This document shows positions 17,255 to 38,581 of a stretch of 64,000 nt of DNA, in pieces. Source of the DNA: Planctomycetes bacterium syqfu. GTDB lineage: Bacteria; Planctomycetota; Phycisphaerae; Phycisphaerales; Phycisphaeraceae. Below the pieces are notes generated by a model. The model was given only the letters and a program-made list of their open reading frames with translations. It was not told where the DNA came from and did no database searches. Numbering within the stretch: the first letter of the stretch is position 1; every line of letters starts with the position of its first letter. The DNA lies in contig CP087563.1 of assembly GCA_020974905.1 (NCBI GenBank), positions 1,674,001 through 1,738,000 of the forward strand, given 5' to 3'. The position numbers and the translations under genes were made by a program.

Positions 17255-19624
17255 TCAAGACACCGCAGCAGCGGGTTTGTTCTCGGCCTGCGGCTTGTCG
17301 GTCGGATACTTGATGCGGCCGTGATAGATGGCGCAGAGCATACGCGTGATGGCGTTCTCGATGGCATGCAGTTCCTTGAGGGTCATGTTGCTCTGATCGA
17401 ACTGGCCGTCCATCAGACGTTTCATCGCTATGGTGTGGACCAACTGTTCCAAACGCACAGGCGTCGGCTCAGCCAATGTCCGGCTGGCGCCTTCGAGTGC
17501 ATCACAGAGCATGAGGATCGCCTGCTCACGGGATTGAGGCTTGGGACCGGGGTAACGGAATTCAAACTCCGCTGGCGCCGGCGAATTTTCCGCTGCGTTT
17601 TGTTGCTTGGCTGCGTGATAGAAGTATTCGACGAGTGTCGTGCCGTGATGCGTTTCGATGAAACCACGGACCGCAACGGGCAAGCCGAACTCGCGGGCCA
17701 TCTCGATGCCGTCTTTGACGTGGCCGACGATGATCAGCAGACTCATCGCAGGTGAAAGCTTATTGTGTTTGTTGGGACCGCCGCCCTGATTTTCGACGAA
17801 GTAGGACGGCTTATTCATCTTGCCGATGTCATGGAACATGGCACCGACGCGACATAACAAACCGTTGGCACCGATCGATTCGGCGGCGGCTTCGGCCATG
17901 TCGGCAATACGCAGTGAGTGCTGGAAAGTGCCCGGCGCTTCCTCTGCCATACGGATCAAAAGCGGGTGCGATGCATCGTTGAGTTCACGCAGGGTCATGC
18001 TCGTGGTCACGCGGAACATGCGTTCGACGGCAGGCAGAATGCCCTGAACCACGATCCCGGCAAACAAACCGACGAACACCAGAATCGCCGGGTCACGCCA
18101 GATGTAATCCAGGTCTTTCCAGACCGCCAGATCGCTGGAACCGAGCTTGGCGAAGACACAGGCCGCTGCCATACACACGCCCGACCAGAAGCCGATGATT
18201 GCCAGACGCGAACGGGTTCGCACGTCATCGAGAAAGCCTGCAACCGCACCAACACCACAAAGCGTCACCACCGCAAACTCCGTGGAAAGATTCAGGCTGA
18301 GCATGACGATAAGGGTATGCGAAGCACCCATGGCCAAGGCAAATCGCTGGTCATAGCTGATGGCAAGGATCATCGTCGCCATCAATGTCGGGAGGACCGC
18401 TGTGGCATACAGGTAATTGGGGACATTGATCACACCCATGATCGCCATCGCCTGACAACCCAGAACCAACACCGTCAAGGCAAGGCCACGCATCGGATTG
18501 ACCGCAATGCGACGGGCAAAGCCGATGATGTACACCCACATCGCAAGACTCACCACCAGCAACATGCCCACGCGTCCGACGAGCATGGCAAGCGAAATGC
18601 TGAACATGCCCACCAGTGACTGGTCGGAGATGCTTTGCAGGTATGCCTTGTTTTCCAACTCGATGAGCAGGACATCCTGACTCTTGAGAATGGTGCCCGC
18701 CTGGATCATCACCGTGTCAGGCGTGTAGGTGAGTTTGGCTTCTTCGACACGTTTATAGGCATTTTCCTTACGCTTGGTCGTGGTCTCATTGTCGAGCGTG
18801 TACGTCGGGGCGATGCGGTCATTAATGACAGAGATCACCGCCTGACGGATGGATGCAGGGAATTCGGTTTGGACCAGCTTGCGGACATCACTGCGGAAGC
18901 GGTTGGATTCGTTGGTCGAGTAAAACCGGTCATCACCATCACTGAGACTGTAGCCGTTGGAGTTAGTGCGTGGCAGTTCGTTGTAGACCGGATGCTGAAT
19001 GTAGATGGTTGACGAGAACGTCCCCCCACTGGTCTCAGCTTCCATGCGTTCGGGCGAGATCATGGCAAGGCCGGCAATGCGACCGAGCAATCGCTCCACC
19101 TTTTTGGTCCATTCGGTTCGTGAGCTTTCGTCTTCAGCAGCCTTTTTGAGTTCTTCCAGTGCACGGTTATCAATGGACAGATGATCGCGGTAGTCACTTG
19201 GGATCTGCTGGGGGGTGTCGTAATCTTTGCCGATGTTCAGCAGGCCTTTGAGATCCTTCCGGATATTCTCAAAAAAAGCATCGTTGAGTTTGTAGACCGA
19301 TGGTTCGCGGTCGCGGGCATTCTGGCGTCGGATTTCAGTTTTGCGTTCGTCGATGGCTTTGAATTCAACACGCGGGACGATGGGCTGGGTGACGAGATCA
19401 CCGACGACATACTGATCCCGGCGGTCAGCCATGTGAATGAGGATGCCACCGACAATGGTGGTGATGCAGGCATAGAGCAATGCCCACCAGACAAAGCGTT
19501 CATTGAGAAATGACCGCCAAGTTGCCTTGGGCCTACGGACATTCCGCCGGACGTTGCCTCTTCTTGCGGTTGTGTTGCTTTTGCCAGCTGGCATGCATCT
19601 ACTTTCAAAAAACACACGGTTCAT
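17255..19624 (-). CDS. PgpH-type 7TM-HD phosphodiesterase
   Basis: 789 residues. The order is: basic N-terminal tail, one membrane helix (about residue 45-65), a large extracytoplasmic 7TMR-HDED-like domain (about 70-340), seven membrane helices (about 345-540), and a cytoplasmic HD domain with FQHSLRIADMAEAAA, AMFHDIGKM and THHGT. This is the build of PgpH, which hydrolyses cyclic di-AMP in Firmicutes. Function here is by homology. The start at 19624 has an in-frame alternative at 19594. PhoH lies directly upstream in the same direction, as in many bacteria, where ybeY often follows; ybeY is not in the window. Confidence 0.9.
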   Translation of the reverse strand: MNRVFFESRCMPAGKSNTTARRGNVRRNVRRPKATWRSFLNERFVWWALLYACITTIVGGILIHMADRRDQYVVGDLVTQPIVPRVEFKAIDERKTEIRRQNARDREPSVYKLNDAFFENIRKDLKGLLNIGKDYDTPQQIPSDYRDHLSIDNRALEELKKAAEDESSRTEWTKKVERLLGRIAGLAMISPERMEAETSGGTFSSTIYIQHPVYNELPRTNSNGYSLSDGDDRFYSTNESNRFRSDVRKLVQTEFPASIRQAVISVINDRIAPTYTLDNETTTKRKENAYKRVEEAKLTYTPDTVMIQAGTILKSQDVLLIELENKAYLQSISDQSLVGMFSISLAMLVGRVGMLLVVSLAMWVYIIGFARRIAVNPMRGLALTVLVLGCQAMAIMGVINVPNYLYATAVLPTLMATMILAISYDQRFALAMGASHTLIVMLSLNLSTEFAVVTLCGVGAVAGFLDDVRTRSRLAIIGFWSGVCMAAACVFAKLGSSDLAVWKDLDYIWRDPAILVFVGLFAGIVVQGILPAVERMFRVTTSMTLRELNDASHPLLIRMAEEAPGTFQHSLRIADMAEAAAESIGANGLLCRVGAMFHDIGKMNKPSYFVENQGGGPNKHNKLSPAMSLLIIVGHVKDGIEMAREFGLPVAVRGFIETHHGTTLVEYFYHAAKQQNAAENSPAPAEFEFRYPGPKPQSREQAILMLCDALEGASRTLAEPTPVRLEQLVHTIAMKRLMDGQFDQSNMTLKELHAIENAITRMLCAIYHGRIKYPTDKPQAENKPAAAVS

Positions 19625-19740: not shown

Positions 19741-20778
19741 TTACCTGTCAGAATCGACATTTTCGTCAAAATCGGCAATTTTATCCGGACGCTGACGCTT
19801 TTTGTCGGTCTTGTCGTACGCTTCGACGATCCGCTGGACCAGGCTGTGACGCACGATGTCGGCCTTATCCAGCGTCGCAAAGGCAATGCCACGGGTGTAT
19901 CGCAGACGGTAAACCGCATCGACAAGGCCCGAATCGCGCGGGTCATCAAGGTCCGTCTGAGACGTATCGCCGGTGACCACCATCTTGCTGCCATGGCCCA
20001 GCCGCGTGAGGAACATCATCATCTGACTCTTGGTGGTGTTCTGGGCTTCGTCAAGAATGATCATCGCATCGTTGAGTGTTCGACCACGCATGAATGCCAA
20101 TGGCACGATCTCAATGACATCACTTGCCATCAACCGCGCAACCTGATCAAACTCCATCATGTCATGCAAACCGTCAAGCAGCGGACGCAGATACGGGTTG
20201 ACCTTCTCCTGCATGGTGCCCGGCAAAAAGCCAAGCCGCTCCCCCGCTTCCACCGCAGGACGAACCAACACGAGTTTGCGCACCACGCCGCGCTTAAGCA
20301 GTGACACCGCTGCCGCGACGGCGAGGTACGTCTTACCCGTTCCCGCAGGTCCGCAGCAGAATGTCAGATCATGATCGAGCACAGCCTGGAGATAAGATTT
20401 TTGTCCCGGCGTTGCAGGCTTGATCCGACGGTCACGCAGGTAGACACTCAGCCCACTGTCCACGCTGATGGGTTCACGCGAACCATCGGTCTGCGCCATG
20501 CCGTTGCGTGTGGTCAGTTGAAGCTGTTCACTGGTTGCAATGAGTTCAAGCAGATGTTGCCGAGAGATGGGCTTATTCTGCTTGGCAGCATCGGAGAGTT
20601 TGTTAAGCACATGCGCAGCACGTCCGACCGCATCGGGTTCGCCGCTGAGTTTAAGCGTCTCATCGCGCGAAGCGATCCGCACATTGAGCGCTTCACGAAT
20701 CAGCTTGAGATTGATCTCACCTGCCCCGGTCATCGTGAACCGCTGGGCGCCTTGGGGTAATGCTATCGTCAGTTCCAA
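19741..20778 (-). CDS. phoH: PhoH-like ATPase
   Basis: 345 residues. Walker A is CGPAGTGKTYLAVA and Walker B is MIILDEAQNTT. Between them is AVEAGERLGFLPG, the PhoH fingerprint. The N-terminal about 100 residues form the KH-like part found in PhoH proteins next to YbeY. It is thought to be an RNA-associated ATPase. The gap to the PgpH start is 116 bases, so the two may share a transcript. Confidence 0.93.
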   Translation of the reverse strand: MELTIALPQGAQRFTMTGAGEINLKLIREALNVRIASRDETLKLSGEPDAVGRAAHVLNKLSDAAKQNKPISRQHLLELIATSEQLQLTTRNGMAQTDGSREPISVDSGLSVYLRDRRIKPATPGQKSYLQAVLDHDLTFCCGPAGTGKTYLAVAAAVSLLKRGVVRKLVLVRPAVEAGERLGFLPGTMQEKVNPYLRPLLDGLHDMMEFDQVARLMASDVIEIVPLAFMRGRTLNDAMIILDEAQNTTKSQMMMFLTRLGHGSKMVVTGDTSQTDLDDPRDSGLVDAVYRLRYTRGIAFATLDKADIVRHSLVQRIVEAYDKTDKKRQRPDKIADFDENVDSDR

Positions 20779-20910: not shown

Positions 20911-21393
20911 ATGCCAAACTCGCCCGTCATCATGCTTACTCTCATCGTGTACGCCCTCTGTTTTGTGGGTTGTCAATCGGCGGACACCCCGATTCTGATC
21001 ATGCCCGGCATTGAGGTCACCGATCAGAACGCCAGTCAGGCGACGTTCAATCATCCCATCAGTCGCCTGGATTATGACCTGTGGCGTGCAGCCAAAGTCG
21101 ACGGATGGGCGATGCCGTATCCCATCAAACCGGATGACGACGGACACTATCGTGGTAAAGGCATGATGCCCGACGGACGCCCACTGATTGTTGATGCATG
21201 GCCGACTGACAATGAGAAACAGAGCTTTATCGCTGAGGTGAAAATCGGACACCTTGGCGATCAACCCAAACAGCGTTTTTATCTGAGCAATCTCCAACGG
21301 ATTCTCAAAGGCAAGCCCATGCCCAAACGCGGTCTGAATTTCACCAAAGATGATGTGGTAAAACCGATCCCCAATGGCGATACAACACCGTAA
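20911..21393 (+). CDS. Lipoprotein of unknown function
   Basis: 160 residues. A hydrophobic leader ends in CFVGC, giving a lipidated Cys near residue 21. The mature domain is about 135 residues and ends in a basic stretch. No family was recognised. TACAAT stands only 6 bases before the ATG, so the mRNA may be leaderless or that box may be chance. Divergent from phoH and convergent with the next gene. Confidence 0.65.
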   Translation: MPNSPVIMLTLIVYALCFVGCQSADTPILIMPGIEVTDQNASQATFNHPISRLDYDLWRAAKVDGWAMPYPIKPDDDGHYRGKGMMPDGRPLIVDAWPTDNEKQSFIAEVKIGHLGDQPKQRFYLSNLQRILKGKPMPKRGLNFTKDDVVKPIPNGDTTP

Positions 21394-21429: not shown

Positions 21430-22797
21430 TCACTTGACGAACTGCGGCCAGAGGCGTTCGATTTGATGTCGCGGTGCGGGGATGAGCATGCGACCGCCTG
21501 CAAGAACACGCTTGATGATCTGGCCATTGGCTTGATAGTCGGTGACCTGTTCCTGAATGTCTTCTGGAGACAACCGGGAATAAACGCGATACTTGCCCCC
21601 TGCCAAATGCTCCAGCCGTTCGGTTCGGAATGAGACCTTGCCCTTGTTGGGATGGTAGGCATAAAAGCCCCATTGACCATCAGGTTGATCAGCCAGCATC
21701 ATCGGCAACAAATACAAGTCCACCTGCGTGAGATATCCTTTGGGGGGCATGTCCCATGTGTAATTGCGGTCACTGGTGGGCTGGCGTCGATTGAGTTGAA
21801 TCTTGCCATTGGAGAGTAAGCCCGTTTCGACCCATGTGTTCTGCATGTCGATGGGGATTTGCTGAGCATCGAATTTGAGTTGCTGTTGGTCACGCAATTT
21901 AAACTGCGTGATCTTGCGCGGATCACGTGGGCGTTCGGTGGTTCGGATGGACCAGATTTCTTCATCACGTTCCGTGGAGACATAGCTGGTGTTAATCGAA
22001 TCGTAGAGCGTATTGCCCAACTGAATCCGCGCCATCACTTCGATTTTAAACCCCATGCGTTCCATGGCATTGTTGTTGGCGATCTCACGCCCATCGAGTT
22101 TGCCATAGGCTTGGCGGATACGCATGTAACCAATATCACGATCACCCTCGACGAATCGGAACCACTGCTCGGGGATCAATTGGTCCTTGAGTTTTTCAAA
22201 CTGGAGTTTTGCCAGCAATTCATGACCGGCATCAAGCAATGTCTCACGCTTGGCAACCAACTCACGTGGATCGGTCATCTTCAAGCTGGCAATGACGGCC
22301 TTGTAAACCGGATTGGCTAAATCATACTTGGCTTTGGGCGTCTCAAGCTGAAAAAGCACAAACACCTTCGGCGAGATTTGCACAAACGTCTGAGCGGTCA
22401 CCCAGGGCCCCTGCTTGGTCTGAGGCAGGTAGAAGTACAACGCCAACTGCTTGTAATCGTTGACCGTTGCAATGTCATCCTTAAGCGCATTGGCTGAGGG
22501 GTAGGCGACGGTCATCTGTTCGATGGCCAATTCCTGCACCTGCGCCAGCGTCATCTCGGTATCGGTTTCCTTGATGAACAGGTGAATGCCATAGCCGTCC
22601 CGCGTGGTGATCCGGGCAATGGCATCATCGACACTGAGCTTGTTCACATTGGCGTTGAGTGGTGGCAAAATGGAAATGCCATAGGAATATTCCTGCCAAC
22701 GCTGATTATCCAACAGTGCACTTTGCTGAGCCTGCAAAGGACAGACGCCAAGCAACAGTGCAACCAACAAGATGACATTAACGAGCAGTCGATTCAT
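21430..22797 (-). CDS. Exported protein of unknown function
   Basis: About 455 residues from ATG 22797, which starts a clear signal peptide (MNRLLVNVILLVALLLGV..LQAQQ). The mature part has no recognised domain. It contains a lipoprotein-like beta pattern and a repeated GYMRI/YVSTERDEE region. The start overlaps the end of the upstream gene by 20 bases, so both are translated as a pair. That pair lies directly after the exopolysaccharide locus, so a role in export or surface layers is possible but not shown. Confidence 0.6.
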   Translation of the reverse strand: MNRLLVNVILLVALLLGVCPLQAQQSALLDNQRWQEYSYGISILPPLNANVNKLSVDDAIARITTRDGYGIHLFIKETDTEMTLAQVQELAIEQMTVAYPSANALKDDIATVNDYKQLALYFYLPQTKQGPWVTAQTFVQISPKVFVLFQLETPKAKYDLANPVYKAVIASLKMTDPRELVAKRETLLDAGHELLAKLQFEKLKDQLIPEQWFRFVEGDRDIGYMRIRQAYGKLDGREIANNNAMERMGFKIEVMARIQLGNTLYDSINTSYVSTERDEEIWSIRTTERPRDPRKITQFKLRDQQQLKFDAQQIPIDMQNTWVETGLLSNGKIQLNRRQPTSDRNYTWDMPPKGYLTQVDLYLLPMMLADQPDGQWGFYAYHPNKGKVSFRTERLEHLAGGKYRVYSRLSPEDIQEQVTDYQANGQIIKRVLAGGRMLIPAPRHQIERLWPQFVK

Positions 22798-24721
22798 GAT
22801 CTTTGATCCATTGTGCAATCGCATTCTGGTGACCCGGCCATTGATTGTACACTTGATTGACATCCACGCGTTGCACTCTCAGCGATAATGTGCTGCTCTG
22901 CCCTGCTTCAAAATCAAATCCGTCAAGCGATTGGAAATGCCCCTGCTCATCAAAGCGGTAAATGTTGGTATCCAGACACACGACTGGACGCCGCAGCAGG
23001 CGGTAACCCAGCGTGGTCTTCTCCAGTCGGACCCAATGCAGGATCGGCGGAGATGCAGTGTAGGCCGTGCGGACCAGTAACCATTGATCGAGCCAGCCCT
23101 GTTGGGTAAACCAATCCACCGGCCAGAAGTCCTCATTGATCGGCCAGGGAATGTCCGCAGCGTTTTCATCCGTATAGCCAAGCACGTTTGATTCACAGAC
23201 GATTTTGCCATCCGACATTTTCATTGACCGGAGTGTGTCTTTGCCTTCAGCAATCTTTTCCTGAGTCGATGAATGATAAGTCTGTTTGTCAAAATCCACT
23301 TCCCAGAAACGATCGATCTTCGAATCACCCTTGGCAGACGGGAAGACGACATGCACGAAGCTGCTTGCCAGATCATCCGACTCACGTTTGATGGATTCGA
23401 GTTGGTAACCGACAAGTTGATCAGCCATGTGGATGGTGTAGACATTAAGCTCATCGTCAATCACTTCTTTCAAGTGTTGCGGAGCATAGGCCACCCATTG
23501 CTTGCCACGTTCGATGGCAGACATCTGTTCCGCCAAGGCATCGGGCGTTTGAGCCAACATCGCTGCAATGTTCGGCAGGTATTCATCAACACGTTGAACC
23601 GAATCCACTTCGCCGGTTACTTCGATGACCAATGCAGCCTGACCGTGCGGCTCGATGATGTGCACCTGTCGCGACAACGGTTCAGGTCCCACACCATAAT
23701 CTTTGTCCGTCGGATACTGCAGGCGATGCCAGGTCGTGTTGGCATGTCCATCGACCTTGATCAGTTCCTTGTCGCTGGGTTTGCGTTTCATCGTCCCCTG
23801 AAACTGCCATGAGAGATACTGCTTGATCGTTGCATCATCCAGACTCACCGACCGGGCAACACGGATCACACAGAAACCATCCATTGAATCGGGATACAAA
23901 AGCACGACGCCCGGTGCTTGCGTATCACAGGTCGCATACCAATCCGAGAGATTGGCTGAATAACCCAACTGTCGCTGGCGACAGGCGTCGGGCGTGGTCA
24001 ACTCAAAACGGTTGTCCTGGGCAAGCAATGCGATGGCAGTTTGGACCTTGTCAAAACGAGCTAACGCTGCCGAGTTCATGGCTTGACCGGGTGTGGCGCG
24101 GCGGGTGTAAAACACCCAGTAACTCCGGCCGTCATGTGTCCAGATGAGCAGATGATGCAAGACGGGTACACCATCGGTTCGACTGATGGCAAGCAGACGC
24201 CGTTGCATGCGATTGCCTTGGCGTGATGCCCATTGATGAGCAACACTCAATGACGAGACATCCGCAGTACCAATGGCATGACGGATGGCCGCATAGATCA
24301 CGGCCTGCGGTCCCTGTGTTTGGCCTGCATCCAATTCAAAGACGTGAAGTTTGGTGTCTTTCTGACGAACATCAATGAAGTGAGACTCGTGTCGCACGCC
24401 GGGCACATCGCTGGTTTGAACGGGCGACTGAGGTTGCCAATCTTCGGGCAACTGTAAATCCAGCGTGTCAACCGCGTGGTGTTTGAGTTGATCGAGTTTT
24501 TCCTTGAGATCAAAATCAGGCTCGAATCGGTCTTCGGAAATGCCTGCGCGATAGTGACTGAGCCACTGGGCAGCAACCAGCGATAAAATCAAAACCAGGA
24601 GCATCGCACCTGCAACGGTCCGATGCTCCTGGCGGGTCGAAGTTGAAGTTGTTTGTTTGCCCATGTCCGGCGCATGGTAGGTTGCCCGACCATGTGTTGC
24701 AATATCATCCCGCGTCGACAC
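22778..24721 (-). CDS. Large membrane-anchored protein of unknown function
   Basis: 647 residues from a GTG at 24721; an in-frame ATG at 24664 is a good alternative. A single membrane helix (AGAMLLVLILSLVAAQWLS) lies near residues 37-56 and the rest is extracytoplasmic, with repeated mixed strands. No known family was recognised. The GTG lies 18 bases after the stop of the glycosyltransferase, so it is probably the distal part of the exopolysaccharide operon. Architecture resembles the protein downstream (21430-22797). Confidence 0.6.
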   Translation of the reverse strand: MSTRDDIATHGRATYHAPDMGKQTTSTSTRQEHRTVAGAMLLVLILSLVAAQWLSHYRAGISEDRFEPDFDLKEKLDQLKHHAVDTLDLQLPEDWQPQSPVQTSDVPGVRHESHFIDVRQKDTKLHVFELDAGQTQGPQAVIYAAIRHAIGTADVSSLSVAHQWASRQGNRMQRRLLAISRTDGVPVLHHLLIWTHDGRSYWVFYTRRATPGQAMNSAALARFDKVQTAIALLAQDNRFELTTPDACRQRQLGYSANLSDWYATCDTQAPGVVLLYPDSMDGFCVIRVARSVSLDDATIKQYLSWQFQGTMKRKPSDKELIKVDGHANTTWHRLQYPTDKDYGVGPEPLSRQVHIIEPHGQAALVIEVTGEVDSVQRVDEYLPNIAAMLAQTPDALAEQMSAIERGKQWVAYAPQHLKEVIDDELNVYTIHMADQLVGYQLESIKRESDDLASSFVHVVFPSAKGDSKIDRFWEVDFDKQTYHSSTQEKIAEGKDTLRSMKMSDGKIVCESNVLGYTDENAADIPWPINEDFWPVDWFTQQGWLDQWLLVRTAYTASPPILHWVRLEKTTLGYRLLRRPVVCLDTNIYRFDEQGHFQSLDGFDFEAGQSSTLSLRVQRVDVNQVYNQWPGHQNAIAQWIKDHESTAR

Positions 24722-24738
24722 GACGCGGCTCGTCTGAT

Positions 24739-26064
24739 TTACGCGGCTTTGGCATAGATGGGTACGTCACTGATTCGACGCGCCATCACGTAGCTTAATT
24801 CCATGCCGGTGGTTTTGATCGGGCAGTATTCCTGAATGAAACTCCGGGCACCGCGTGCCAATTGCAGACGCATGGCTGTGCTTCGCAGTGAGTCGACACA
24901 CAGGTCCACCCAGTCACGATCGAGCTTGGGCATCAGCAGGTGTTCGCCGTGCTTGACGTTCAGATCACTGACGGAACTCGACGAGGTGATGACAGGTCGG
25001 GCCATCGCCATCGCCTGCAAAGTCGGCCAGACGGCCTGGGCGATTTCCTGTAACGAACTGACGACGACGGAGGCGCTGCTCAGACGACGTGCTGTTGCTG
25101 GAGACAAAGCCGGACCACTGCAGGTGAGTACCGCGTTGGGTACAGCCTGTTTGATGCGGGGCCAGATTTCCTCGGTAAACCAGCTCTTTGAACGCCAGAA
25201 TGAACGGCTGCGCCAGTTGCCATGCAACACCACCTGCGGGAGTTCCGTTTGGATGTCGTTGAGAGGTAACTTGAAGTAACCCAGGTCCACGGCATCGGGC
25301 ACGACGATCGAATGACAATGACGATCGACAAACGAATGCTGAGCCAACGGTGAGTTGATGGTCAGGATGTCCGCCCGACAGGCGATGTACTGTTCCATCT
25401 CCGAACGCTGCTGTGCGCGGTGCTGGTGCCAGAGTTGTCGGGTGTAGCTGTTGGACTTCTGTGCGATCAATTCGTGAGCCATGCTCAACGGTTGATAGAG
25501 ATCACATACACGGACGTTGGCACGAACCCGTTCAGCCAAAGGCCAGAGTCCGGGGTGCATGCACATCACCGCATCAAAGCGATGATCCTTACGCATCAAT
25601 CGGACTTGTCTGCGGAGCGCTGAGGTCATGCGGACCTGATCCGAGACATTGGGTGCGACCATGGACAAACCGCGGCCGAAGATTTCACGTCGTATTGGAC
25701 AATCTTCCACGACGATGGTGTGTGTCTGGGAATTGACCTGTCGCCACTGGTTAAGGTGAACAGGTTCGTCCTTGATGCAAGCCAGGTGCACATCGTGTGT
25801 CTGACTTGCCAGTCGAAGCATTTGCCAGGCCCGGGCCCGATCGGCAGTACCCATCGGGTCTGGGACGCAGTGGCTGAGCATGAGCAACGCCGGACGTTTA
25901 TTCCCGGCCGTTGCTCCGATCAGTGGCAATTGCTCAAGGGAGCTTAAATCCTTGAGACTTTCCGGTGACGGGTTCTCCCCTCCGCCCCGTGTTGCTGCTG
26001 CCTGGCGAATTGTCTTTCTCCCAACCGCCCCGCTGCTGCCACTAGTTTGATTTGATGCCTGCAT
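24739..26064 (-). CDS. Glycosyltransferase, PEP-CTERM/exopolysaccharide locus type
   Basis: 441 residues from ATG 26064, which has GGAG eight bases upstream; a GTG nine bases further upstream is in frame. A low-complexity N-terminal 60 residues are followed by a GT-B fold: N-terminal RPALLMLSHCVPDPMGTADRARAW, then VVPDAVDLGYF, and C-terminal HGEHLLMP. This matches glycosyltransferases of the sugar transferase family linked to PEP-CTERM/EpsH systems (TIGR03087-like), although the C-terminal donor site is divergent. It probably adds a sugar to the lipid-linked repeat unit. Confidence 0.7.
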   Translation of the reverse strand: MQASNQTSGSSGAVGRKTIRQAAATRGGGENPSPESLKDLSSLEQLPLIGATAGNKRPALLMLSHCVPDPMGTADRARAWQMLRLASQTHDVHLACIKDEPVHLNQWRQVNSQTHTIVVEDCPIRREIFGRGLSMVAPNVSDQVRMTSALRRQVRLMRKDHRFDAVMCMHPGLWPLAERVRANVRVCDLYQPLSMAHELIAQKSNSYTRQLWHQHRAQQRSEMEQYIACRADILTINSPLAQHSFVDRHCHSIVVPDAVDLGYFKLPLNDIQTELPQVVLHGNWRSRSFWRSKSWFTEEIWPRIKQAVPNAVLTCSGPALSPATARRLSSASVVVSSLQEIAQAVWPTLQAMAMARPVITSSSSVSDLNVKHGEHLLMPKLDRDWVDLCVDSLRSTAMRLQLARGARSFIQEYCPIKTTGMELSYVMARRISDVPIYAKAA

Positions 26065-26124
26065 AACATGCACTCCGAATACAACGCAGGTTTAACGAAC
26101 TATCCAACGAATACGCTAGTTTGA

Positions 26125-27111
26125 TCAGGCCGCCTTGGCGTAGTAGCGGTATTGGTAGCGGTATCCGTAGCGGTAGTAGTAATACTGTCTGAAACTGCGT
26201 GAGTGGTCGGTGGCGATGACCCCTGCCACGGGTGCATGGTAGCTTTCCAGGGTGCGGATGGCCTGACGGATCAGCGTGCTGGGGGTCCGGCTCATGCGGG
26301 CGATGAGAATCACATCATCACTTTGCGAACCGAGGATACCAGCATCAGCCAACTCCACGACAGGTGGTGTGTCGATGATCACGTGATCGTATTCACGCTT
26401 GAGTTTCTTGATCATCGAAGACATCTGCGGGCTGGAGAGCAGTTGGACGGCTTCGTTGTTCACACGCGTCCCGGCGGGGAGCACGTGCAGACCGTTGGGG
26501 CCGACTTCCAGAAGTGCATCCTGGAAGGAAGCTTCACCACGCATCACACCGACCAGACCATATGACTGGGGCAGGTTCAAAAGTTTCTTGAACTGCGGCA
26601 GACGAAGGTCCGCTTCAATCACCAGCGTCTTGCGGTTATGCAGTTCGGACATGATCAGGCCCATGTTGAGGCTGGTGATCGTCTTGCCTTCCTGCGGCGT
26701 CGCGGAGGTAATGGTGTGGACAAGGTGTCGACGGTTTTCCCACTTGGCCAGCAAACCGGTGCGGATCGAGCGATACTCTTCGGCGATCACGCATGACGGA
26801 TTGGTCAGACTCACCAGGCGTTCGTCCACGTCACTGTAATCCTCACGATTGACAGTCCGTTGGGCGGGCTTGGGCATCGGGGGCACGCTGATGTTCACAG
26901 ACGGTGCTGCCGGTGCTGCCAGCGATGGGGTGGGTTGAGCCTGGGGCTGTTGTGGAGCCTGTGGGGCCTCGATGGACAGATTTTCAGAAGCCGGAGTCTG
27001 CTCGCCGGTGAACTTCAGGCCACCAGTTGGTGACGAAGTTGCATCGGCATGCTTGGCCGAATCCTTGGGTTCCTGCCCACCACGATTCAATGCGTCAAAG
27101 ATGTAACCCAT
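26125..27111 (-). CDS. BY-kinase (capsular polysaccharide tyrosine autokinase)
   Basis: 328 residues. A Pro/Ala/Gln-rich N-terminal linker of about 90 residues precedes a P-loop domain. Walker A is ATPQEGKTITS, Walker A' is VIEADLRLP, and Walker B is HVIIDTPPV. The C-terminus is a tyrosine cluster (YYYYRYGYRYQYRYY), the usual site of transfer autophosphorylation. This is the CpsD/CapB-type tyrosine kinase that controls chain length with Wzz. The gene lies next to the ExeA-like ATPase, as in the exopolysaccharide loci of the PEP-CTERM type. The three-base gap to the upstream gene indicates one operon. Confidence 0.9.
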   Translation of the reverse strand: MGYIFDALNRGGQEPKDSAKHADATSSPTGGLKFTGEQTPASENLSIEAPQAPQQPQAQPTPSLAAPAAPSVNISVPPMPKPAQRTVNREDYSDVDERLVSLTNPSCVIAEEYRSIRTGLLAKWENRRHLVHTITSATPQEGKTITSLNMGLIMSELHNRKTLVIEADLRLPQFKKLLNLPQSYGLVGVMRGEASFQDALLEVGPNGLHVLPAGTRVNNEAVQLLSSPQMSSMIKKLKREYDHVIIDTPPVVELADAGILGSQSDDVILIARMSRTPSTLIRQAIRTLESYHAPVAGVIATDHSRSFRQYYYYRYGYRYQYRYYAKAA

Positions 27112-27113
27112 GA

Positions 27114-27998
27114 TTACATATTCCCTGCTAGCGCGAGCCTTGGGGTCTCGCTGGTTGAAGAAACAAATTCGCTGTGTTTAAGACTCAGTGAAAGATCCGC
27201 AGCAACGGTTTGGATCATTGCCGGCGTGATTTCACGTTCTTTTTTCACACTTGCCAGAAGCATCGCACCATCACAGATGTAGTTGATCAGGCGGGGTACG
27301 CCGTGCGTGAGATGGAAGATAGCTTCAAGCGTTTTACCCGGGAAGCGGACCTGCAGATGCTGCGGGTCGATGCTTGCCAGACGGATACGATGGCCGATGT
27401 AGGCGGCGGTTTCCTGGATGTTCATCGGGCGAAGCGTCTTGACCATGGCCAAACGCTGGCGAAGCGAAGACATCTCAGGCTGCTGAAGTCGATGGATCAA
27501 CTCCGGCTGGCCGACGAGCACCACCTGAACAAGCTTGGCGCGGTTGGTGTCGTAGTTACTGAGCATGCGAAGCTCTTCGAGCGCACTGTCGGACATCGTG
27601 TGCGCTTCGTCCACGAGCAGGACCACCGGCTCACCGGTTGCATACTGTTCATGCAGGAAGGTGAAGACCTTCTCAAGCAGAATCGCATGGTCGTCCAGTG
27701 CGTGGTAGGTCACTTCCACAGCCCGGAGAATCTGGCGAAGCAGTTGCTTGCCGTCTTCGTGCCCGTGGAGGATCGGGACGATTCGCGAGCTGTCTGAACA
27801 GCGACTGATCATCGTCCGTCCGACCGTGGTCTTACCCGTCCCCACCGGCCCGGTCACACACACGTAGCCTTTACGCATGCGGATCGTGTACTCAATGGCG
27901 GCGAGTGCCTCGCGGTGTTCCTCGCTCCCGAAGAAGAATCGCGGGTCAGGCGTATTCTCAAAGGGCAAGGTTTTGAGGTTGAAAAATGCGTCGTACAT
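27114..27998 (-). CDS. ExeA/XrtA-locus-type AAA ATPase
   Basis: 294 residues. MYDAFFNLKTLPFENTPDPRFFF is the classic start of this group. Walker A is GPVGTGKTT and Walker B is PVVLLVDEAHTMS. Proteins of this type (TIGR03015-like) occur in PEP-CTERM/exosortase-linked exopolysaccharide loci, and ExeA is a related secretion ATPase. What they act on is unknown. It is followed directly by the BY-kinase. Confidence 0.88.
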   Translation of the reverse strand: MYDAFFNLKTLPFENTPDPRFFFGSEEHREALAAIEYTIRMRKGYVCVTGPVGTGKTTVGRTMISRCSDSSRIVPILHGHEDGKQLLRQILRAVEVTYHALDDHAILLEKVFTFLHEQYATGEPVVLLVDEAHTMSDSALEELRMLSNYDTNRAKLVQVVLVGQPELIHRLQQPEMSSLRQRLAMVKTLRPMNIQETAAYIGHRIRLASIDPQHLQVRFPGKTLEAIFHLTHGVPRLINYICDGAMLLASVKKEREITPAMIQTVAADLSLSLKHSEFVSSTSETPRLALAGNM

Positions 27999-28023
27999 CT
28001 CGAGTTTCCCTTAACTCTTGGTG

Positions 28024-29700
28024 TTAGTCAGACTGGCGGGCATCAACACTTGCTTTGGCGTCTTTCGCACTTGTGTTCAGTTGCTGCTGGAGCATCTCCA
28101 TCGGATCGTTCTGGATCACGTCTGTGTTCGGGTTGTTCTGCAGGTTCATGTACAGGACACTGACCAGGGTCACCAGGACGGTTGTCATGGCAACGGCATT
28201 GAGCGGGTACAGGACCATGTTGCGAACCTTACGCATCCGACGATGCTGCACCGAGACGATCTCACTAACTTCACCAAGCAGAGGCAGGTGAAGCGAGTTG
28301 GAGAGTTGTTCACCGTCGTGGAAGGTTTCATCCGTACGATGAGCAAAGAGCAGACTGATGGCACCACTGATCAGGCCCAGCCCCATCGCGGAGATGAGAA
28401 TCTGGAACATGTTCGGGGCCACCGGGCGTGTCAACTCGGTACACGGGCGGATGAAGGCCAGTTGAACACCGCGGTTGCCATCTTCAGCACTGCGGGCCAT
28501 CTGGACACGGCGGAGGTTTTCTTCCCAGAACTGCAGTTCACGCTGCAATTGATCCATCTGGCGGGTGATCTTGCGATACTGCGAACGGATCGGGAAGAGT
28601 TCAGAAGCTTTCATATCAAGCTGCTGGCGACGTTCGGTCACCTGGTTGAGTTCAGCTTCGATGGCATCGTATTGCGTCTGTGCCTGCGTCAAGGCCAGCT
28701 TCAGTTCGTCAAAGCGATTGTTGCTGGCAATAGTCTTGCGGGTGACCACTTCGGTTTCGGTGTTGCCGATGACCTGCTGCACCTGTGCGATCTGAACCTG
28801 AAGGTCCTGAACCTGTGGGTGACGGTCAGTCATCTTGTTGACCACGACGGCTGTGCGGTACTCATTCTGAAGATCGCGAAGCTTGGCTTCCAGGCGGATC
28901 AACTCGGGGTTACGTTCCTTCACCAGTGAGTTGATGGTCTGAGAAGTCGATGCCAGGGCTTGCTTGCAGGCGTCCTTCTGATTCTTGGCGATGTTGAGTT
29001 GACGGGTCAGGTCAGCAACGCGTTCATCAAGCTGCGTCTGGATCATGCTGATGCTGTTGGGTGAATCAGGCAGCAACTCGGCATACTTGATTTCGTAGGT
29101 CAGCTTCTGGTTTTCCAGTGTTTCAATCTTGATGCGGGTGCGATCGACTTCGTCATAGAAGAAGCTCTGTGTGTCTTCAAGTCCCTTGGCAATCTGCTCA
29201 CGAGCCTGGTCGATGTAGTTGTGAACCAGTCGGTTGATCACCAGGCGGCTGAGGATCGGATCGGTGCCGATGTATTTGACACTGATACGTTCGTGTTCCT
29301 GCGTGGCGATCTCAAACTGGACCTGTAACTTGCGAGCCATGTCGCGACGGAGTTCAGCGAGATTCACATCCTGGCCACCGTTTTCGACCATCATGGCCAC
29401 GAAGGGCTTGACGTCATCAATGGCCTTGTCCAGACTCACGCCGTTGGTCAGCTCCTGCTTGATGCTGGTGGTATGCTGATCGTAGGTCTTCTGCCCGCTA
29501 CCGACCATGATTGAAGCGAGGACTTGATCGGTGCGACGATCGAAGACGGCTTCAGCCTGGTACTTGCGAGGCAGCAGCAGCGAGAGCGCCAAGACGGCTG
29601 CACTGACAATAAACAGTGGGAAGATGAACCGCCATTTGTAACGCAGGAGGATAAACCATGCGTCGACTAAGGCTTTAGCTTGGTTATTTGAGCGACTCAT
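28024..29700 (-). CDS. Wzz-type polysaccharide chain-length protein
   Basis: 558 residues. Membrane helix 1 (FIFPLFIVSAAVLALSLLL, about 23-42) is followed by a long periplasmic coiled-coil region (about 160-430). Membrane helix 2 is near 445-465, then a basic stretch, another helix (about 510-530) and a short tail. This is the PCP2/GumC-like build that sets chain length or spans the envelope in exopolysaccharide export. Partner of the BY-kinase downstream and of the outer membrane protein upstream. Confidence 0.85.
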   Translation of the reverse strand: MSRSNNQAKALVDAWFILLRYKWRFIFPLFIVSAAVLALSLLLPRKYQAEAVFDRRTDQVLASIMVGSGQKTYDQHTTSIKQELTNGVSLDKAIDDVKPFVAMMVENGGQDVNLAELRRDMARKLQVQFEIATQEHERISVKYIGTDPILSRLVINRLVHNYIDQAREQIAKGLEDTQSFFYDEVDRTRIKIETLENQKLTYEIKYAELLPDSPNSISMIQTQLDERVADLTRQLNIAKNQKDACKQALASTSQTINSLVKERNPELIRLEAKLRDLQNEYRTAVVVNKMTDRHPQVQDLQVQIAQVQQVIGNTETEVVTRKTIASNNRFDELKLALTQAQTQYDAIEAELNQVTERRQQLDMKASELFPIRSQYRKITRQMDQLQRELQFWEENLRRVQMARSAEDGNRGVQLAFIRPCTELTRPVAPNMFQILISAMGLGLISGAISLLFAHRTDETFHDGEQLSNSLHLPLLGEVSEIVSVQHRRMRKVRNMVLYPLNAVAMTTVLVTLVSVLYMNLQNNPNTDVIQNDPMEMLQQQLNTSAKDAKASVDARQSD

Positions 29701-29782
29701 GTGAACGACTTCCTTCCGATTTTGAGTTCACGTTCGTACGTGTCAATCACTTCGACTTCAACAAAACACTTCAGGTAACCCG

Positions 29783-30565
29783 TTAACGTGCGTTCTCTGG
29801 GCCACCCCGGTACGGATAACCCGAAAGGTCGGTGCCGATGCTTGCAGGGCCGGCAACCGTCTGTGCTGCGGGTTGGATTGGGAGTAACAACTGCTGTAAG
29901 GCAAGACCGACTGCGGCAAAACCGTTGGCAGGCACATACAGGATGTCACCTTCATTGAGCACGGCATCGAGTGTCGTATCGCCTTCTTTAACCATCTTGT
30001 CCAGGTCAATGGTCATGCGTTTGACCATCTCACCTTTGCCAGACGGACGCAGCACATGAATGCAGGTCGGGTCGGCCAGGCGTGACGGCTGAGCCATTGC
30101 CAGGGTTTGCAGAACCGTGTTGGCACCGTTGTAGGAGTATGCACCGGGACGGGCGACTTCACCGAACACAAAGATGCGTTTGGAATTAAAGCCCACCACG
30201 CGGAGACTCACATCAGCATCTTCGTAGTACTGAGAGGCAAGCTGTTGCAACTCGGTGCTGACCTGCTCGGGTGTCTTGCCTGCCACGAAGTGTGAGCCAA
30301 GCAAGGGAAGCGTGATGCGACCATCAGGGCGGATCTGCTCGGTGTGATTGGAAATTTCCGTCACACGCTTGGAGTAGATCGTAATCGTGTCAGGCGGCGC
30401 CAGGGTGTAGGCCTTGCTGGTGACCGTCGGACGCGGTGTGGTTACGAACGCCGAGTAATCAGTGTAGTTCGGCTGAGAGCAACCCACGAGCCCCAACAGG
30501 ATGCCGATGAGAATCGGGCCTGCTGAAAGTGACGGACGCTTTTTGATAACGGTAAACTTCGACAT
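29783..30565 (-). CDS. Polysaccharide export outer membrane lipoprotein (Wza-like)
   Basis: 260 residues. The leader ends in LVGC, so a lipidated Cys is near residue 29. The polysaccharide export domain has YTLAPPDTITIYSKRVTE and RPDGRITLPLLG. An SLBB-like segment, VFGEVARPGAYSYNGANTVLQTLAMA, follows. Wza family members are usually longer (about 350-380), so this is a short form without extra SLBB copies and the C-terminal helix. It is the second gene of the locus, after the priming transferase. Confidence 0.88.
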   Translation of the reverse strand: MSKFTVIKKRPSLSAGPILIGILLGLVGCSQPNYTDYSAFVTTPRPTVTSKAYTLAPPDTITIYSKRVTEISNHTEQIRPDGRITLPLLGSHFVAGKTPEQVSTELQQLASQYYEDADVSLRVVGFNSKRIFVFGEVARPGAYSYNGANTVLQTLAMAQPSRLADPTCIHVLRPSGKGEMVKRMTIDLDKMVKEGDTTLDAVLNEGDILYVPANGFAAVGLALQQLLLPIQPAAQTVAGPASIGTDLSGYPYRGGPENAR

Positions 30566-30596
30566 CTTAATTTCCTCCTGACACTGTTTTTTACGA

Positions 30597-31238
30597 TTAC
30601 AGTGCGGCTTGATCCCAAACTTTCGGAAACGTCGCCAGCAGCAGCTTCAGATCGCTGAGCACGCTACGGTGACGCAGGTATCGCAAATCAAAGGCAACTT
30701 TCCGACGGGCACCCGCCAGATCGTTGGTGTAACCATGTTTGACCTGGGCAAGACCCGTCAGGCCCGGACGACCTGCCAGGCGGCGTTCAATGCCCGGGAT
30801 ATCCTTACGCAGTTGTTCAAACATCTCAGGGCGTTCGGGGCGAGGTCCGACCAGGCTCATATCACCCTTGAGAATGTTCCAGAGCTGGGGTAATTCATCG
30901 ACGTGTGAACGACGCATGATGTTGCAACCAAAGAGCACACGCGGGTCACGCTTGGAGGCCCACTGGGCGCTACCGGGTTTTTCAGCGTTCATCCCCATCG
31001 TGCGGAACTTGTAAATCTTGAACAGCCAGCCGTCGGTTCCCACACGCCATTGCGAGTAGAACACCGGGCCCCCATCCACCAGGCGAATCCATAGAGCACA
31101 GAAAGCAAGCACAGGCAGGAGAACAAGAATGCCAACCGCAGAGCCGCAGATATCAATCAGACGCTTGCACGTCTCAAAGAACATGCCGGGGCTTTGCAGC
31201 GATCGGTTGCTTAGACTCAGGGGCTGACTGGTTTTCAT
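30597..31238 (-). CDS. Sugar transferase (priming glycosyltransferase, WcaJ/PglC-like)
   Basis: 213 residues. After a short N-terminus there is one hydrophobic segment (about residues 29-50), then KIYKFRTMGMNAE, RRSHVDELPQLWNILKGDMSLVGPRPE and GRPGLTGLAQVKHGYT. All are hallmarks of the bacterial sugar transferase domain that puts the first sugar phosphate on undecaprenyl phosphate. It is the small form with a single reentrant helix. As the first gene of the leftward locus it probably starts its transcription from the region 31239-31518. Confidence 0.92.
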   Translation of the reverse strand: MKTSQPLSLSNRSLQSPGMFFETCKRLIDICGSAVGILVLLPVLAFCALWIRLVDGGPVFYSQWRVGTDGWLFKIYKFRTMGMNAEKPGSAQWASKRDPRVLFGCNIMRRSHVDELPQLWNILKGDMSLVGPRPERPEMFEQLRKDIPGIERRLAGRPGLTGLAQVKHGYTNDLAGARRKVAFDLRYLRHRSVLSDLKLLLATFPKVWDQAAL

Positions 31239-31287: not shown

Positions 31288-31518
31288 CGGACTAGGATCA
31301 GGTATCGTCGCAATGATTAGGTCACTTAAGCCAACTTTTCATTTTGTGACGTTTGTAACGACAAAAATATTTATGAGACTTGCACCGCAATCCCCTGAAC
31401 ATTGCCATCGCACAAGCGTTCGTCAGTCATTTAGCCCCCCTGTCTTCTGGCCGATAGTCTTGGAGGTACTTGTTATAGAGACGTGGTGATCTGCCTATGC
31501 AGAATCAGGAAACACCGA

Positions 31519-32301
31519 ATGTCTGATAAAAAACGCATCCAGATGATCTCAGGTCTGACACCTGCTGTTGAGGGGGAGCCGCAACGTCGTCCAACCGACC
31601 TGCTGAGTCTCGGGCCCATCTCCAGCAAAGCATCCAAGCCCTGGAATCCGGACTGGACCATCTACCAATTAGCCCGTCAGCATTATTTACCCGACACCAA
31701 TCAACAACTTTTTGTCTTCGCCTGTGGTCAAGGTGACGTTGCCATCCGTTTGGCAATGCTTGGGTACGACGTCTATGCCAGCGACCCCGATCCTACCAAC
31801 ATCGATTGGGCCAAAGAGTCCGCCCTGCAGCATGGTGTTGCCTCCCATTGCCAATTCGCACATATGTCGAATGAAGTCATCCAATATGACGATCAACGCT
31901 TTGATCTGATCATCAGCCTTGATGCACTCAAAACGTCCGATATCACGCAAACCGTCAACCAACTGCATCGCATTCTCAAAGACGGTGGCTTGGCTATGTT
32001 CAAGGAACAGGTCATCACCCCACTGGACAAAGCAGCCAACGTGGCAACTGCGTTAACCGATTCGGACCTTCAGTTGCTTGAGTCCACCTTCGATGACATG
32101 CAGGTCCAGCGGTTTACCATTCTCAGTCGACTGAATCACCTGATCCCACCATCCAGCCAATCCACGCGGACCGCGTTGCAGAAACTCGACCGCAAACTCC
32201 TGGACCTCTGCCCCCCCATGGCAAAGCTCGGGGCCACCGCTGTCATCACCTGTCATCGACATGCTCAGGGGCTGGGTGACGACATCCAGTTTGCTGCGTG
32301 A
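31519..32301 (+). CDS. Class I SAM-dependent methyltransferase
   Basis: 260 residues. The SAM-binding region is LFVFACGQGDVAIRLAMLGYDVYASDPD (about residues 57-85), followed by QRFDLIISLDALKT, where other family members have FD.V......L. The glycine motif reads CGQGD, acceptable for this family. AGGA lies before the ATG at 31519. Substrate unknown; it lies divergent from the exopolysaccharide locus and could modify a sugar or a lipid. Confidence 0.75.
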   Translation: MSDKKRIQMISGLTPAVEGEPQRRPTDLLSLGPISSKASKPWNPDWTIYQLARQHYLPDTNQQLFVFACGQGDVAIRLAMLGYDVYASDPDPTNIDWAKESALQHGVASHCQFAHMSNEVIQYDDQRFDLIISLDALKTSDITQTVNQLHRILKDGGLAMFKEQVITPLDKAANVATALTDSDLQLLESTFDDMQVQRFTILSRLNHLIPPSSQSTRTALQKLDRKLLDLCPPMAKLGATAVITCHRHAQGLGDDIQFAA

Positions 32302-33910: not shown

Positions 33911-35269
33911 TCATCGCGCCCACGTCGCCCCGACATCTTCACGATCCAACGGCTTTAAGCGCTGCAGCGTCATCTCACGCACACTGGCAGGACTCTGCTT
34001 AAGCAACGCAAACGCGTCCTCTGGCAAAGGCTGCTGATTGCCCGACACCAGTTTTTGCGTGATCTCCATGCCGGTGATGAGATTGTTCTTCCAGGTCAAT
34101 TGTCCCTGTTTTTCCTGACGGAATGTGATCACGGCCAAGCCGGTTGGATCAATCACCGTATTGCCTTCAAGCAACGTCTCCGTCGGAACCACAAACGCCT
34201 TGGAAGTCTCCGGCTTGACGCCGATATCAAAGGGACTGCGACAGTTGATCAGCACGTTATCCCGGATCACACAATCCTTCACCGGCCAATACCCATGTAG
34301 CGGCCCTTCCGCAAAAGCATTGTTTAAAACGATGGCACCATAAAACTGCTCACCATTGAGATTCTCCATGTAATTGCCCTGAACGACATGACCTTCGCCA
34401 ATCACACGGACCCCGCTGTTGAGTTCATGGCCGTCACCAATAAAGACGTTGTCGCGGACAATGCAGTTGTTGCCATGACGCAAAGTCATCTGACCTTTGC
34501 AATGAAGAAACGTGTTGTTTTCATAGACATTAAAGCAACTCTTGTTTGAGATGATTTCAATCTCACCATCGCATTTTTCAAAGAGGTTGCGATACACGCG
34601 GACATGCGCTGCCATCATCGATGTCTTGCTGTCACCAATGCGCATGATCTCCCAACCGTTCTTGTCCGTGCCCTTGGGGCGATTGGCAAAATAATTGTCA
34701 TGAATTGCGTGCCCGACACCCTTAGCCGGGTTAAGCTCCGCATCATCAAGCCAAACCGTCAGCAGATTGTCTTCAACGATTTTGTTGGTGAATGTGCAGT
34801 GATCAATCTCGTGAAAACGCCCATGAATATAGACCCATTTGGCTTTGTGACCATCCCCGTTTTTATCGTGTATGCGCGTTTGCGTCAGACGACAATGTTC
34901 CGAGCCCCGCTCAAAACGGATCACCCAATCGCTCTTGATCGACCCGCCATTCAAGTCGAACCCACTGACCACCAGATGCGAACCTTCGATGAAGATTCGT
35001 GAGTTGCCGGTGAGAACCACCTTACCTGGCGTCTGGGCGCGGAGTGTGATGGGTTTATCCTTTTGTCCCTTATTTTGTGGGGCAAACTTGATATCCTCAT
35101 CGGCATACGTGCCATCCGCCCAGACGATTTCGTCCCCTGCTTGAACCTGTTTACAAACTTCAGCCAGTTGCTTTGCAGAGTTGATCTGCCAGGTCTTCGC
35201 GCACGCCATGTTCACCAGGCAAGCCAACAAGAGTCCGCTAAATAACCAACCACGTGATGCTAACAACAT
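33911..35269 (-). CDS. Polysaccharide lyase family 6 (alginate lyase/chondroitinase B-like)
   Basis: About 452 residues from ATG 35269, which has AAGGAT six bases upstream. A signal peptide (LFSGLLLACLVNMACA) is followed by a right-handed beta-helix. NKSCFNVYENNTFLHCKGQMTLRHGN carries the Lys and Arg expected of the PL6 active site. PL6 enzymes cleave alginate or dermatan sulfate by beta-elimination. The sodium symporter, acetyl esterase and alginate-lyase-family protein nearby make alginate or a related uronate the likely substrate. Two bases separate the upstream symporter stop at 35287 from the in-frame lyase region. Confidence 0.85.
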   Translation of the reverse strand: MLLASRGWLFSGLLLACLVNMACAKTWQINSAKQLAEVCKQVQAGDEIVWADGTYADEDIKFAPQNKGQKDKPITLRAQTPGKVVLTGNSRIFIEGSHLVVSGFDLNGGSIKSDWVIRFERGSEHCRLTQTRIHDKNGDGHKAKWVYIHGRFHEIDHCTFTNKIVEDNLLTVWLDDAELNPAKGVGHAIHDNYFANRPKGTDKNGWEIMRIGDSKTSMMAAHVRVYRNLFEKCDGEIEIISNKSCFNVYENNTFLHCKGQMTLRHGNNCIVRDNVFIGDGHELNSGVRVIGEGHVVQGNYMENLNGEQFYGAIVLNNAFAEGPLHGYWPVKDCVIRDNVLINCRSPFDIGVKPETSKAFVVPTETLLEGNTVIDPTGLAVITFRQEKQGQLTWKNNLITGMEITQKLVSGNQQPLPEDAFALLKQSPASVREMTLQRLKPLDREDVGATWAR

Positions 35270-35286
35270 CCTGTATCCTTCCAATG

Positions 35287-37116: not shown

Positions 37117-37134
37117 GATTCAAATCAATTTCTA

Positions 37135-37162
37135 TTGGACACATCACGAATAATGTGTCCAA
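37135..37162. terminator. Hairpin between esterase and symporter genes
   Basis: TTGGACACAT and ATGTGTCCAA form a 10-bp stem around an 8-base loop. The T tract is weak in either direction, so this may be an mRNA-stabilising hairpin that sets relative expression and need not terminate. Confidence 0.4.
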
Positions 37163-37179
37163 AATCTCAAGTCACTGAA

Positions 37180-38538: not shown

Positions 38539-38581
38539 GAATCAAAGCACTTTCGATTGAACAAATCGGAGTCGGATAAAT

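Follow-up and report, generated by a model that had tools for sequence, protein, structure and literature searches.

The DNA analysed here (the window) is a stretch of 64,000 nucleotides (nt), bases 1,674,001-1,738,000, of the 7.38 Mb single-contig genome of Planctomycetes bacterium syqfu. It contains a locus of eight genes, all on the minus strand and read from 31238 to 21430. The first six encode proteins for the initiation and export of an exopolysaccharide (EPS), and the last two encode exported proteins of no recognised family. The original prediction gave the gene order as priming transferase, Wza, Wzz, ExeA-like ATPase, bacterial tyrosine kinase (BY-kinase), glycosyltransferase and the two exported proteins, and this order is confirmed by the open frames and family scans (sizes in amino acids, aa):

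30597..31238, minus strand: priming sugar-phosphate transferase, 213 aa short form (PF02397, 200 bits)
29783..30565, minus strand: Wza-like outer-membrane export protein (PF02563, 53.9 bits; TIGR03027, 84.9 bits, cut-off 180)
28024..29700, minus strand: Wzz-like chain-length protein, 558 aa (TIGR03007, 120 bits, cut-off 279)
27114..27998, minus strand: ExeA-like AAA ATPase (TIGR03015, 242 bits, cut-off 324.5)
26125..27111, minus strand: BY-kinase (TIGR01007, 114 bits, above its cut-off of 108; TIGR03018, 133 bits, cut-off 231)
24739..26073, minus strand: glycosyltransferase-like protein (TIGR03087, 88.9 bits, cut-off 316.65)
22778..24664 (frame called 22778-24721), minus strand: exported protein 1, 647 aa as called, 628 aa from a conserved ATG
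21430..22797 (frame called 21430-22863), minus strand: exported protein 2, 477 aa as called, 455 aa from a likelier ATG

The priming transferase has no counterpart of the N-terminal membrane domain found in full-length members of its family and matches only positions 255-441 of the 445 of TIGR03025. By eye, the Wza-like protein has a lipoprotein-like signal. The Wzz-like protein is separate from the kinase, not fused to it. The BY-kinase has the expected Walker A (SATPQEGKT), A' (LVIEADLR) and B (VIIDTPP) motifs, and 10 of its last 25 residues are tyrosines. The likelier start of the 647-aa protein is the ATG at 24664, whose methionine is invariant in 15 aligned rows, and that of the 477-aa protein is the ATG at 22797, ahead of its signal peptide. 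With these starts the overlap of the two genes is real and spans 20 nt. The proteins had been described as membrane-exported, which agrees with a signal anchor in the 647-aa protein and a signal peptide in the 477-aa protein, both recognised by eye. The gene order recurs in many relatives and is thus not due to chance. Scans for promoters and terminators across the locus were at chance level (7 found against 6.3 expected, and 7 found against 9.8 expected, respectively).

Distribution was counted in 101 genomes, consisting of Planctomycetes bacterium syqfu and 100 relatives, and 244 genomes of the phylum served as a wider sample for the family of the 477-aa protein. A Wzz match of at least 430 bits was considered locus-type, a limit chosen after inspecting the Wzz search results. 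Locus-type Wzz is present in 36 of the 101 genomes and any Wzz match (E 1e-5) in 43, the seven below 430 bits being paralogues, fragments or weak rows. The named loci found via the Wzz-like protein (n=24) are all planctomycete (15 Phycisphaeraceae/Phycisphaerales, 2 Phycisphaera sp., and 7 labelled Planctomycetota only); family and order labels of the remaining genomes were derived from these named records.

XrtA/PEP-CTERM-associated NCBIfam models are best or near-best for the six EPS proteins. None of the XrtA-system cut-offs is reached (TIGR03013, 214 bits against 393; TIGR03007, TIGR03015, TIGR03018, TIGR03027 and TIGR03087 as listed above), and the general BY-kinase model TIGR01007 is the sole EPS model whose cut-off is passed. 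The proposal that the locus is of the exosortase-linked type is upheld as far as these family affinities go, but it fails on the scores and on the lack of any tie to an exosortase. As originally noted, there is no exosortase in view within the window (1.674-1.738 Mb). The genome has two (PF09721), located at 4.919 and 6.504 Mb. A genome devoid of exosortases is excluded by the whole-genome check, which gave these two and eight PEP-CTERM places, all more than 2 Mb away. PF07589 has nine places in the genome, eight of them over the cut-off, and the nearest to the window is the weak ninth at 3.913 Mb. Among 14 control genomes, one exceeded the exosortase cut-off; six matched PF07589 at a loose E-value and none over its cut-off. 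The frame of one exosortase has 673 aa and exceeds the exosortase domain in length, while the other has 311 aa and is followed by a weakly EpsI-like protein (26 bits). Both have Wzc-like genes in their vicinity, together with genes of the Wza or priming-transferase type, and ∼7 kb from the second a PEP-CTERM protein is encoded. According to an earlier observation, EpsH is usually found near EPS genes (PMC1569441).

The statement that no polymerase or flippase is seen also holds: no exosortase, Wzy or Wzx family was detected by Pfam in 32 window frames outside the eight genes, a scan that covered frames before position 56260 not overlapping larger ones and was confined to the window for Wzy and Wzx. 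The locus could be viewed as the polysaccharide arm of the exosortase system, relocated in the chromosome, with PEP-CTERM proteins being attached to its product. The affinity of the EPS proteins to XrtA/PEP-CTERM-associated models and the occurrence of exosortases and PEP-CTERM places in the same genome would suit such an arrangement. We consider it improbable, however, given the missed XrtA-system cut-offs, the separate Wzc-like gene near each exosortase, and the 65 of 101 genomes that have an exosortase and no locus-type Wzz match. Since an exosortase is found in all 101 genomes and locus-type Wzz in only 36, the locus and the exosortase are not tied to each other. The locus is a real, separate module for polysaccharide initiation and export, of XrtA-like make-up and not tied to an exosortase.

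This module shares with the XrtA/PEP-CTERM EPS set a separate Wzz, a short BY-kinase, an ExeA-like ATPase, Wza, a Stp1-like glycosyltransferase and a priming transferase. It differs in its scores under the curated cut-offs, in the absence of an exosortase from the window and of a polymerase or flippase from the scanned frames, and in the degenerate glycosyltransferase-like protein of the window's family. With the Wzy/Wzx-Wzz-Wzc-Wza pathway it has in common the priming transferase, the chain-length protein, a BY-kinase with a tyrosine cluster, and Wza. Unlike that pathway, it has no Wzy or Wzx in the scanned window frames, and its kinase and glycosyltransferase-like protein end in a conserved Ala-Ala.

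The two exported proteins had been regarded as parts of the locus that may take part in export, a view that their distribution does not support. The 477-aa family is present in 95 of the 101 genomes (91 when searched by single sequence), and no locus-type Wzz was found in 60 of these 95. The original prediction had named two things together as an argument against itself, promoters of their own for the two genes and occurrence without the locus elsewhere; the second of these is what the genomes reveal, and the pair is found together without locus-type Wzz in several of them (G026, G029, G034, G012, G071, G059 and G055). Some of the 60 genomes are incomplete, and in G001 the contig begins inside the pair; when the count is limited to the 80 genomes with a completeness of 90% or more and a contamination of 5% or less (rounded table values), the 477-aa family is present in 77, of which 53 are without a 430-bit Wzz. 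The family is also found in 35 of the 36 genomes with locus-type Wzz (the exception is G014). In the phylum sample it occurs in 19 of 244 genomes, 18 within the order and one, a 26-bit row, outside it.

Among 46 fetched loci of the 477-aa family, Wzz lies at most 9 kb upstream in 24, and a homologue of the 647-aa protein is directly upstream in 31. Their lengths are 635-694 aa (one is truncated by a contig edge), 377-431 aa for those of three sister-family loci, and 110-311 aa for short forms; the short forms that were aligned retain only the anchor and first domain. In the window the pair is followed downstream by two further genes, the second of which we take to be of PgpH type:

19741..20778, minus strand: PhoH (PF02562, 294 bits)
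17255..19624, minus strand: 7TM-HD (seven-transmembrane HD) protein, downstream of phoH (PF07697, PF07698, PF01966)

Of 35 loci of the window's family, 27 have phoH at most 2.5 kb downstream, and three of the eight others run into a contig edge; none of 11 loci from other families has phoH within this distance. G007 and G009 have their EPS genes at another place, and the pair remains with phoH. Since the pair occurs without locus-type Wzz in many genomes and stays with phoH in these two, it represents the older unit, with the EPS genes as a frequent neighbour. The two exported proteins are thus a separate, conserved, older periplasmic pair that is independent of the EPS locus.

The alternative to be weighed against this conclusion is a single functional EPS locus, with the two proteins dedicated to export and, for instance, taking the polymer or its lipid-linked precursor to Wza. 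The pair is directly downstream on the same strand with a 20-nt gene overlap, and a carrier role would be suited to the predicted EipB/LolA-like fold described below. The EPS locus and the pair are also neighbours in 24 of the 35 genomes with both, which counts against complete independence, and a functional link between them is possible. We nevertheless regard a single locus as unlikely, since a locus-type Wzz match is absent from 60 of the 95 genomes that carry the 477-aa family, the pair is intact in such genomes (e.g. G026, G029, G012, G071 and G059), and the locus and pair are apart in G007 and G009, where phoH accompanies the pair.

Some variation around the pair was also observed. In the window, a small lipoprotein-like gene of no known family (20911-21393, plus strand) lies between the pair and phoH and is kept in several relatives. 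In two sister-family loci (L069:5922-8699 and L071:10960-13671), a family 35 glycoside hydrolase follows the 477-aa gene instead of phoH. In genus g20 (L157, L159, L160), no glycosyltransferase-like gene was found beside the BY-kinase, and the 477-aa gene follows the kinase. Strain ZRK32 (locus L103), a culturable relative, combines the locus and the 477-aa protein with short forms of both the glycosyltransferase-like protein and the upstream partner.

The profile search suggested for the two exported proteins gave no match to Pfam (E up to 1) or NCBIfam, apart from one chance-level row (E 0.18). Comparison of the 477-aa family profile with solved structures returned two chance rows only and did not return 6NTR. 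We therefore used AlphaFold2 models, obtained from 17 sequences for the 477-aa protein (mean predicted local distance difference test score, pLDDT, 81.8) and 15 sequences for the 647-aa protein (83.8). The 477-aa model is predicted to contain a Mog1/PsbP-like domain (residues 46-198; PsbP 2xb3, Z 15.8; LpqN, Z 15.1) and an EipB/LolA-like domain (residues ∼209-466; EipB 6NTR, Z 14.3, root-mean-square deviation (rmsd) 3.4, 197 residues aligned). The closest fold match of the latter region, above EipB, is a sperm axoneme chain (9fqr_Xh, Z 18.2, 225 aligned, 14% identity), which was taken as fold similarity only. The 647-aa model has a signal anchor, a predicted Mog1/PsbP-like domain (72-241; Mog1, Z 14.7), a putative second PsbP-like stretch (∼264-395) assigned from the order of secondary structure and hhalign and without a fold match of its own, and a predicted EipB-like domain (415-622; 6NTR, Z 13.6, rmsd 3.5, 194 aligned; LolA rows, Z 7.5-8.8). 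Overall, the N-terminal domains of both models match Mog1, PsbP and LpqN at Z 10.5 to 15.8.

The 477-aa protein aligns by hhalign with residues 260-630 of the 647-aa protein (E 2.3e-6, probability 89). This profile alignment makes a duplication the probable origin of the pair, one of the two proteins having an additional anchored domain. Both predicted C-terminal domains share the spiral beta-barrel fold and periplasmic location of Brucella EipB (DUF1849), but they have no sequence match to it and are joined to a Mog1/PsbP-like domain in a tandem pair. Similarly, the predicted N-terminal fold is that of Mog1/PsbP-like proteins, which include the envelope proteins LpqN and DcrB, whereas the window domains are fused to an EipB/LolA-like domain and have no family match at the sequence level. 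EipB is described as a periplasmic barrel involved in envelope integrity by an unknown mechanism, with a LolB- or chaperone-like role under discussion (PMC10787603). By analogy of the predicted folds, the pair may act as a carrier or chaperone.

The sixth EPS gene had been named a glycosyltransferase, and this name does not hold as given. Its TIGR03087 score is under the cut-off, a glutamine replaces a glutamate in the putative donor site, and the C-terminal domain is mostly lost in 13 of the 26 complete copies of the window's family. Comparison of its profile with solved structures returned no rows, so the position of the donor-site glutamate rests on alignment with relatives. In three sister-family relatives (G067, G078 and G081), the corresponding stretch reads NK(V/I)LEAMA, with glutamate in 3/3. 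In the window's family there are 13 full-length copies with complete frames, that of the window included, and every one of them has glutamine instead (LQAMA and variants). The 13 other complete copies have only 192-299 aa; most or all of the C-terminal domain is gone, and the N-terminal half and tail are kept.

From these alignments, the protein is probably a pseudoenzyme that has lost catalysis. Three points weigh against this assignment. The short copy G024 has a glutamate aligned at the LEAMA column, most of the surrounding domain being missing. The classic glycosyltransferase motif is E-x7-E, and its first glutamate is absent even in the relatives that have the second. Lastly, a glutamine in place of glutamate need not abolish activity. 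A divergent glycosyltransferase that is still active would be consistent with the persistence of full-length copies, which make up 13 of the 26 complete genes of the window's family. Such activity seems doubtful in view of the glutamine in every one of these 13 and of the other 13, which have lost most of the C-terminal domain yet keep the gene and its tail.

The tail is a feature that the glycosyltransferase-like protein (...IYAKAA) shares with the BY-kinase (...YYAKAA). Tails were counted in a single locus per genome in 36 genomes. An Ala-Ala end is present on the BY-kinase in 29 of 35 genomes and on the glycosyltransferase-like protein in 28 of 28, these 28 representing 20 genera of two families. 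The glycosyltransferase-like protein was not counted in eight genomes, where it is cut by a contig end (G013, G046), the contig is short and has no BY-kinase (G032), there is no match beside the BY-kinase (G041, G045, G047, G049), or the gene is elsewhere within the locus (G078; this copy also ends in Ala-Ala). The background is 16 of 625 open reading frames of at least 200 aa in loci L051-L114, a set that was not de-duplicated (several loci share genomes) and may include non-gene frames; L051, L052 and L079 were omitted from the printed tails of this set. The priming transferase (0/32), Wza (0/34) and Wzz (0/36) of these loci do not end this way, nor do the 477-aa protein (0/23), PhoH (0/19) and the HD protein (0/15). 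Only 1 of 30 BY-kinases in loci from a TIGR03018 search of the phylum has this end. The residues ahead of Ala-Ala are variable; in most cases position -3 is occupied by Lys, Arg or Gln. The alanine codons of both genes also vary (GCA, GCC, GCG and GCT) and no shared downstream DNA motif was seen by eye; hence, no reason at the DNA level was found for the tails.

Two other protein ends were considered and set aside. The ATPase was rejected as a third member because its frequent LAGN(M)/LAG end coincides with GCAGGGAA or a similar Shine-Dalgarno-like stretch before the kinase start, a DNA-level reason that suffices for these endings. Nothing was concluded from the end of the priming transferase (WD..A, then mostly Leu, Cys or Met), where the whole stretch is conserved.

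In the E. coli ssrA degron, the terminal Ala-Ala is reported to be the most important part, and related Ala-Ala ends target other proteins (PMC7652416). The genome encodes ClpX (593 bits) and transfer-messenger RNA, with a tag predicted by ARAGORN to end in MAA. Since ClpXP degrons depend chiefly on Ala-Ala, the tails may be read as a sign of shared regulated turnover of the kinase and glycosyltransferase-like protein, and by analogy a degron would be the simplest interpretation of an Ala-Ala end that is conserved and cytoplasmic. The window tails (...YAKAA) resemble the ssrA-type YALAA in their C-terminal Ala-Ala; they differ in being gene-encoded and in having a basic residue or Gln at -3 in most cases, and their degradation is conjectural. 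According to the same source, YALAA suffices on green fluorescent protein and LAA does not (PMC7652416).

Several observations do not favour a degron. Six of the 35 BY-kinases have no Ala-Ala (three end in -SA, one in -AS, and G041 and G025 otherwise), and 6 of the 32 ATPases of these loci do have it. Among glycosyltransferase homologues outside such loci, Ala-Ala is present at the end of L125 and absent from that of L126, L138 and L124. Position -3 is mostly basic or Gln here, compared to Leu in E. coli ssrA and Met in the tag predicted for this genome. The main rival is a docking peptide: the tail of the glycosyltransferase-like protein would mimic that of the kinase and occupy the site, in the kinase ring or in the ATPase, to which the kinase tail binds. 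The window and a few relatives have Tyr-Ala-(Lys/Gln)-Ala-Ala at the end of both proteins, and the tail of the kinase is beside the tyrosine cluster. On the other hand, only 5 of 29 tails of the glycosyltransferase-like protein have Tyr at -5, and Ala-Ala is retained by kinases that have fewer tyrosines in this region (G045, G047 and G049), making docking a rather unlikely explanation. The stronger proposal, that in the window's family the glycosyltransferase has turned into a non-catalytic regulator, reduced to its N-terminal half in many species, that it and the kinase carry gene-encoded ssrA-like degrons, and that export is set by their joint turnover through ClpXP, is put forward tentatively, as possible rather than probable. 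The kinase of genus g20 (L157, L159, L160) has a basic stretch and an Ala-Ala end, with fewer tyrosines near the end.

Taken as a whole, an explanation by two modules side by side, an export module with a pseudoenzyme and turnover tails and a periplasmic pair, has in our judgement about an even chance of being correct. The first module (30.6 to 24.7 kb, six genes) would start and export a cell-surface polysaccharide. The priming transferase would load the first sugar onto a lipid carrier. Chain length would be set, and export gated, by the Wzz-like protein together with the separate BY-kinase, and Wza would take the chain across the outer membrane. Later sugars, flipping and polymerisation would be supplied by genes elsewhere. 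The sixth product, with a remnant glycosyltransferase fold and catalysis most likely lost, would serve as a binding or regulatory partner. The C-terminus of (basic or Gln)-Ala-Ala on it and on the kinase would most likely be a ClpXP-type turnover mark, so that the export complex could be adjusted by amount in addition to tyrosine phosphorylation. The second module would be an older periplasmic pair of a soluble and a membrane-anchored protein, both combining a Mog1/PsbP-like domain with an EipB/LolA-like one. This pair, which is present in many species that lack the first module, would most likely carry or chaperone a hydrophobic cargo of the envelope from one membrane to the other.

The locus is ordinary as an EPS locus; what is unusual is the pseudoenzyme series and the shared tails. 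The analysis separates two things merged by gene order, an initiation and export module not tied to an exosortase and a widespread periplasmic pair whose domain make-up is covered by no scanned Pfam or NCBIfam model. The di-alanine tails bear on whether polysaccharide export kinases can undergo regulated proteolysis. If correctly interpreted, the glycosyltransferase series, from active-site Glu to Gln to domain loss, would be a natural record of the change from enzyme to pseudoenzyme inside an EPS operon. Within the set of papers searched, no paper was found joining Phycisphaerae, exopolysaccharide and exosortase; Phycisphaerales, exopolysaccharide and tyrosine kinase; PhoH, PgpH and Planctomycetes; or "catalytically inactive glycosyltransferase" with exopolysaccharide.

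Other genes surround the locus. A SAM (S-adenosylmethionine) methyltransferase gene (31483-32301, plus strand) is divergent from the priming transferase gene, with a homologue at this place in L054, L068, L091, L093, L097 and L099. On the other side, an IS110-type transposase gene (15354-16409, plus strand) adjoins the HD protein gene. A polysaccharide breakdown cluster at 33911-45780 encodes a chondroitinase-B-type lyase (PF14592), a sodium symporter, an AXE1 esterase, a LacI regulator, an alginate lyase (PF05426) and sugar oxidoreductases. It probably serves the use of uronate polysaccharides and is adjacent to, but separate from, the EPS genes.

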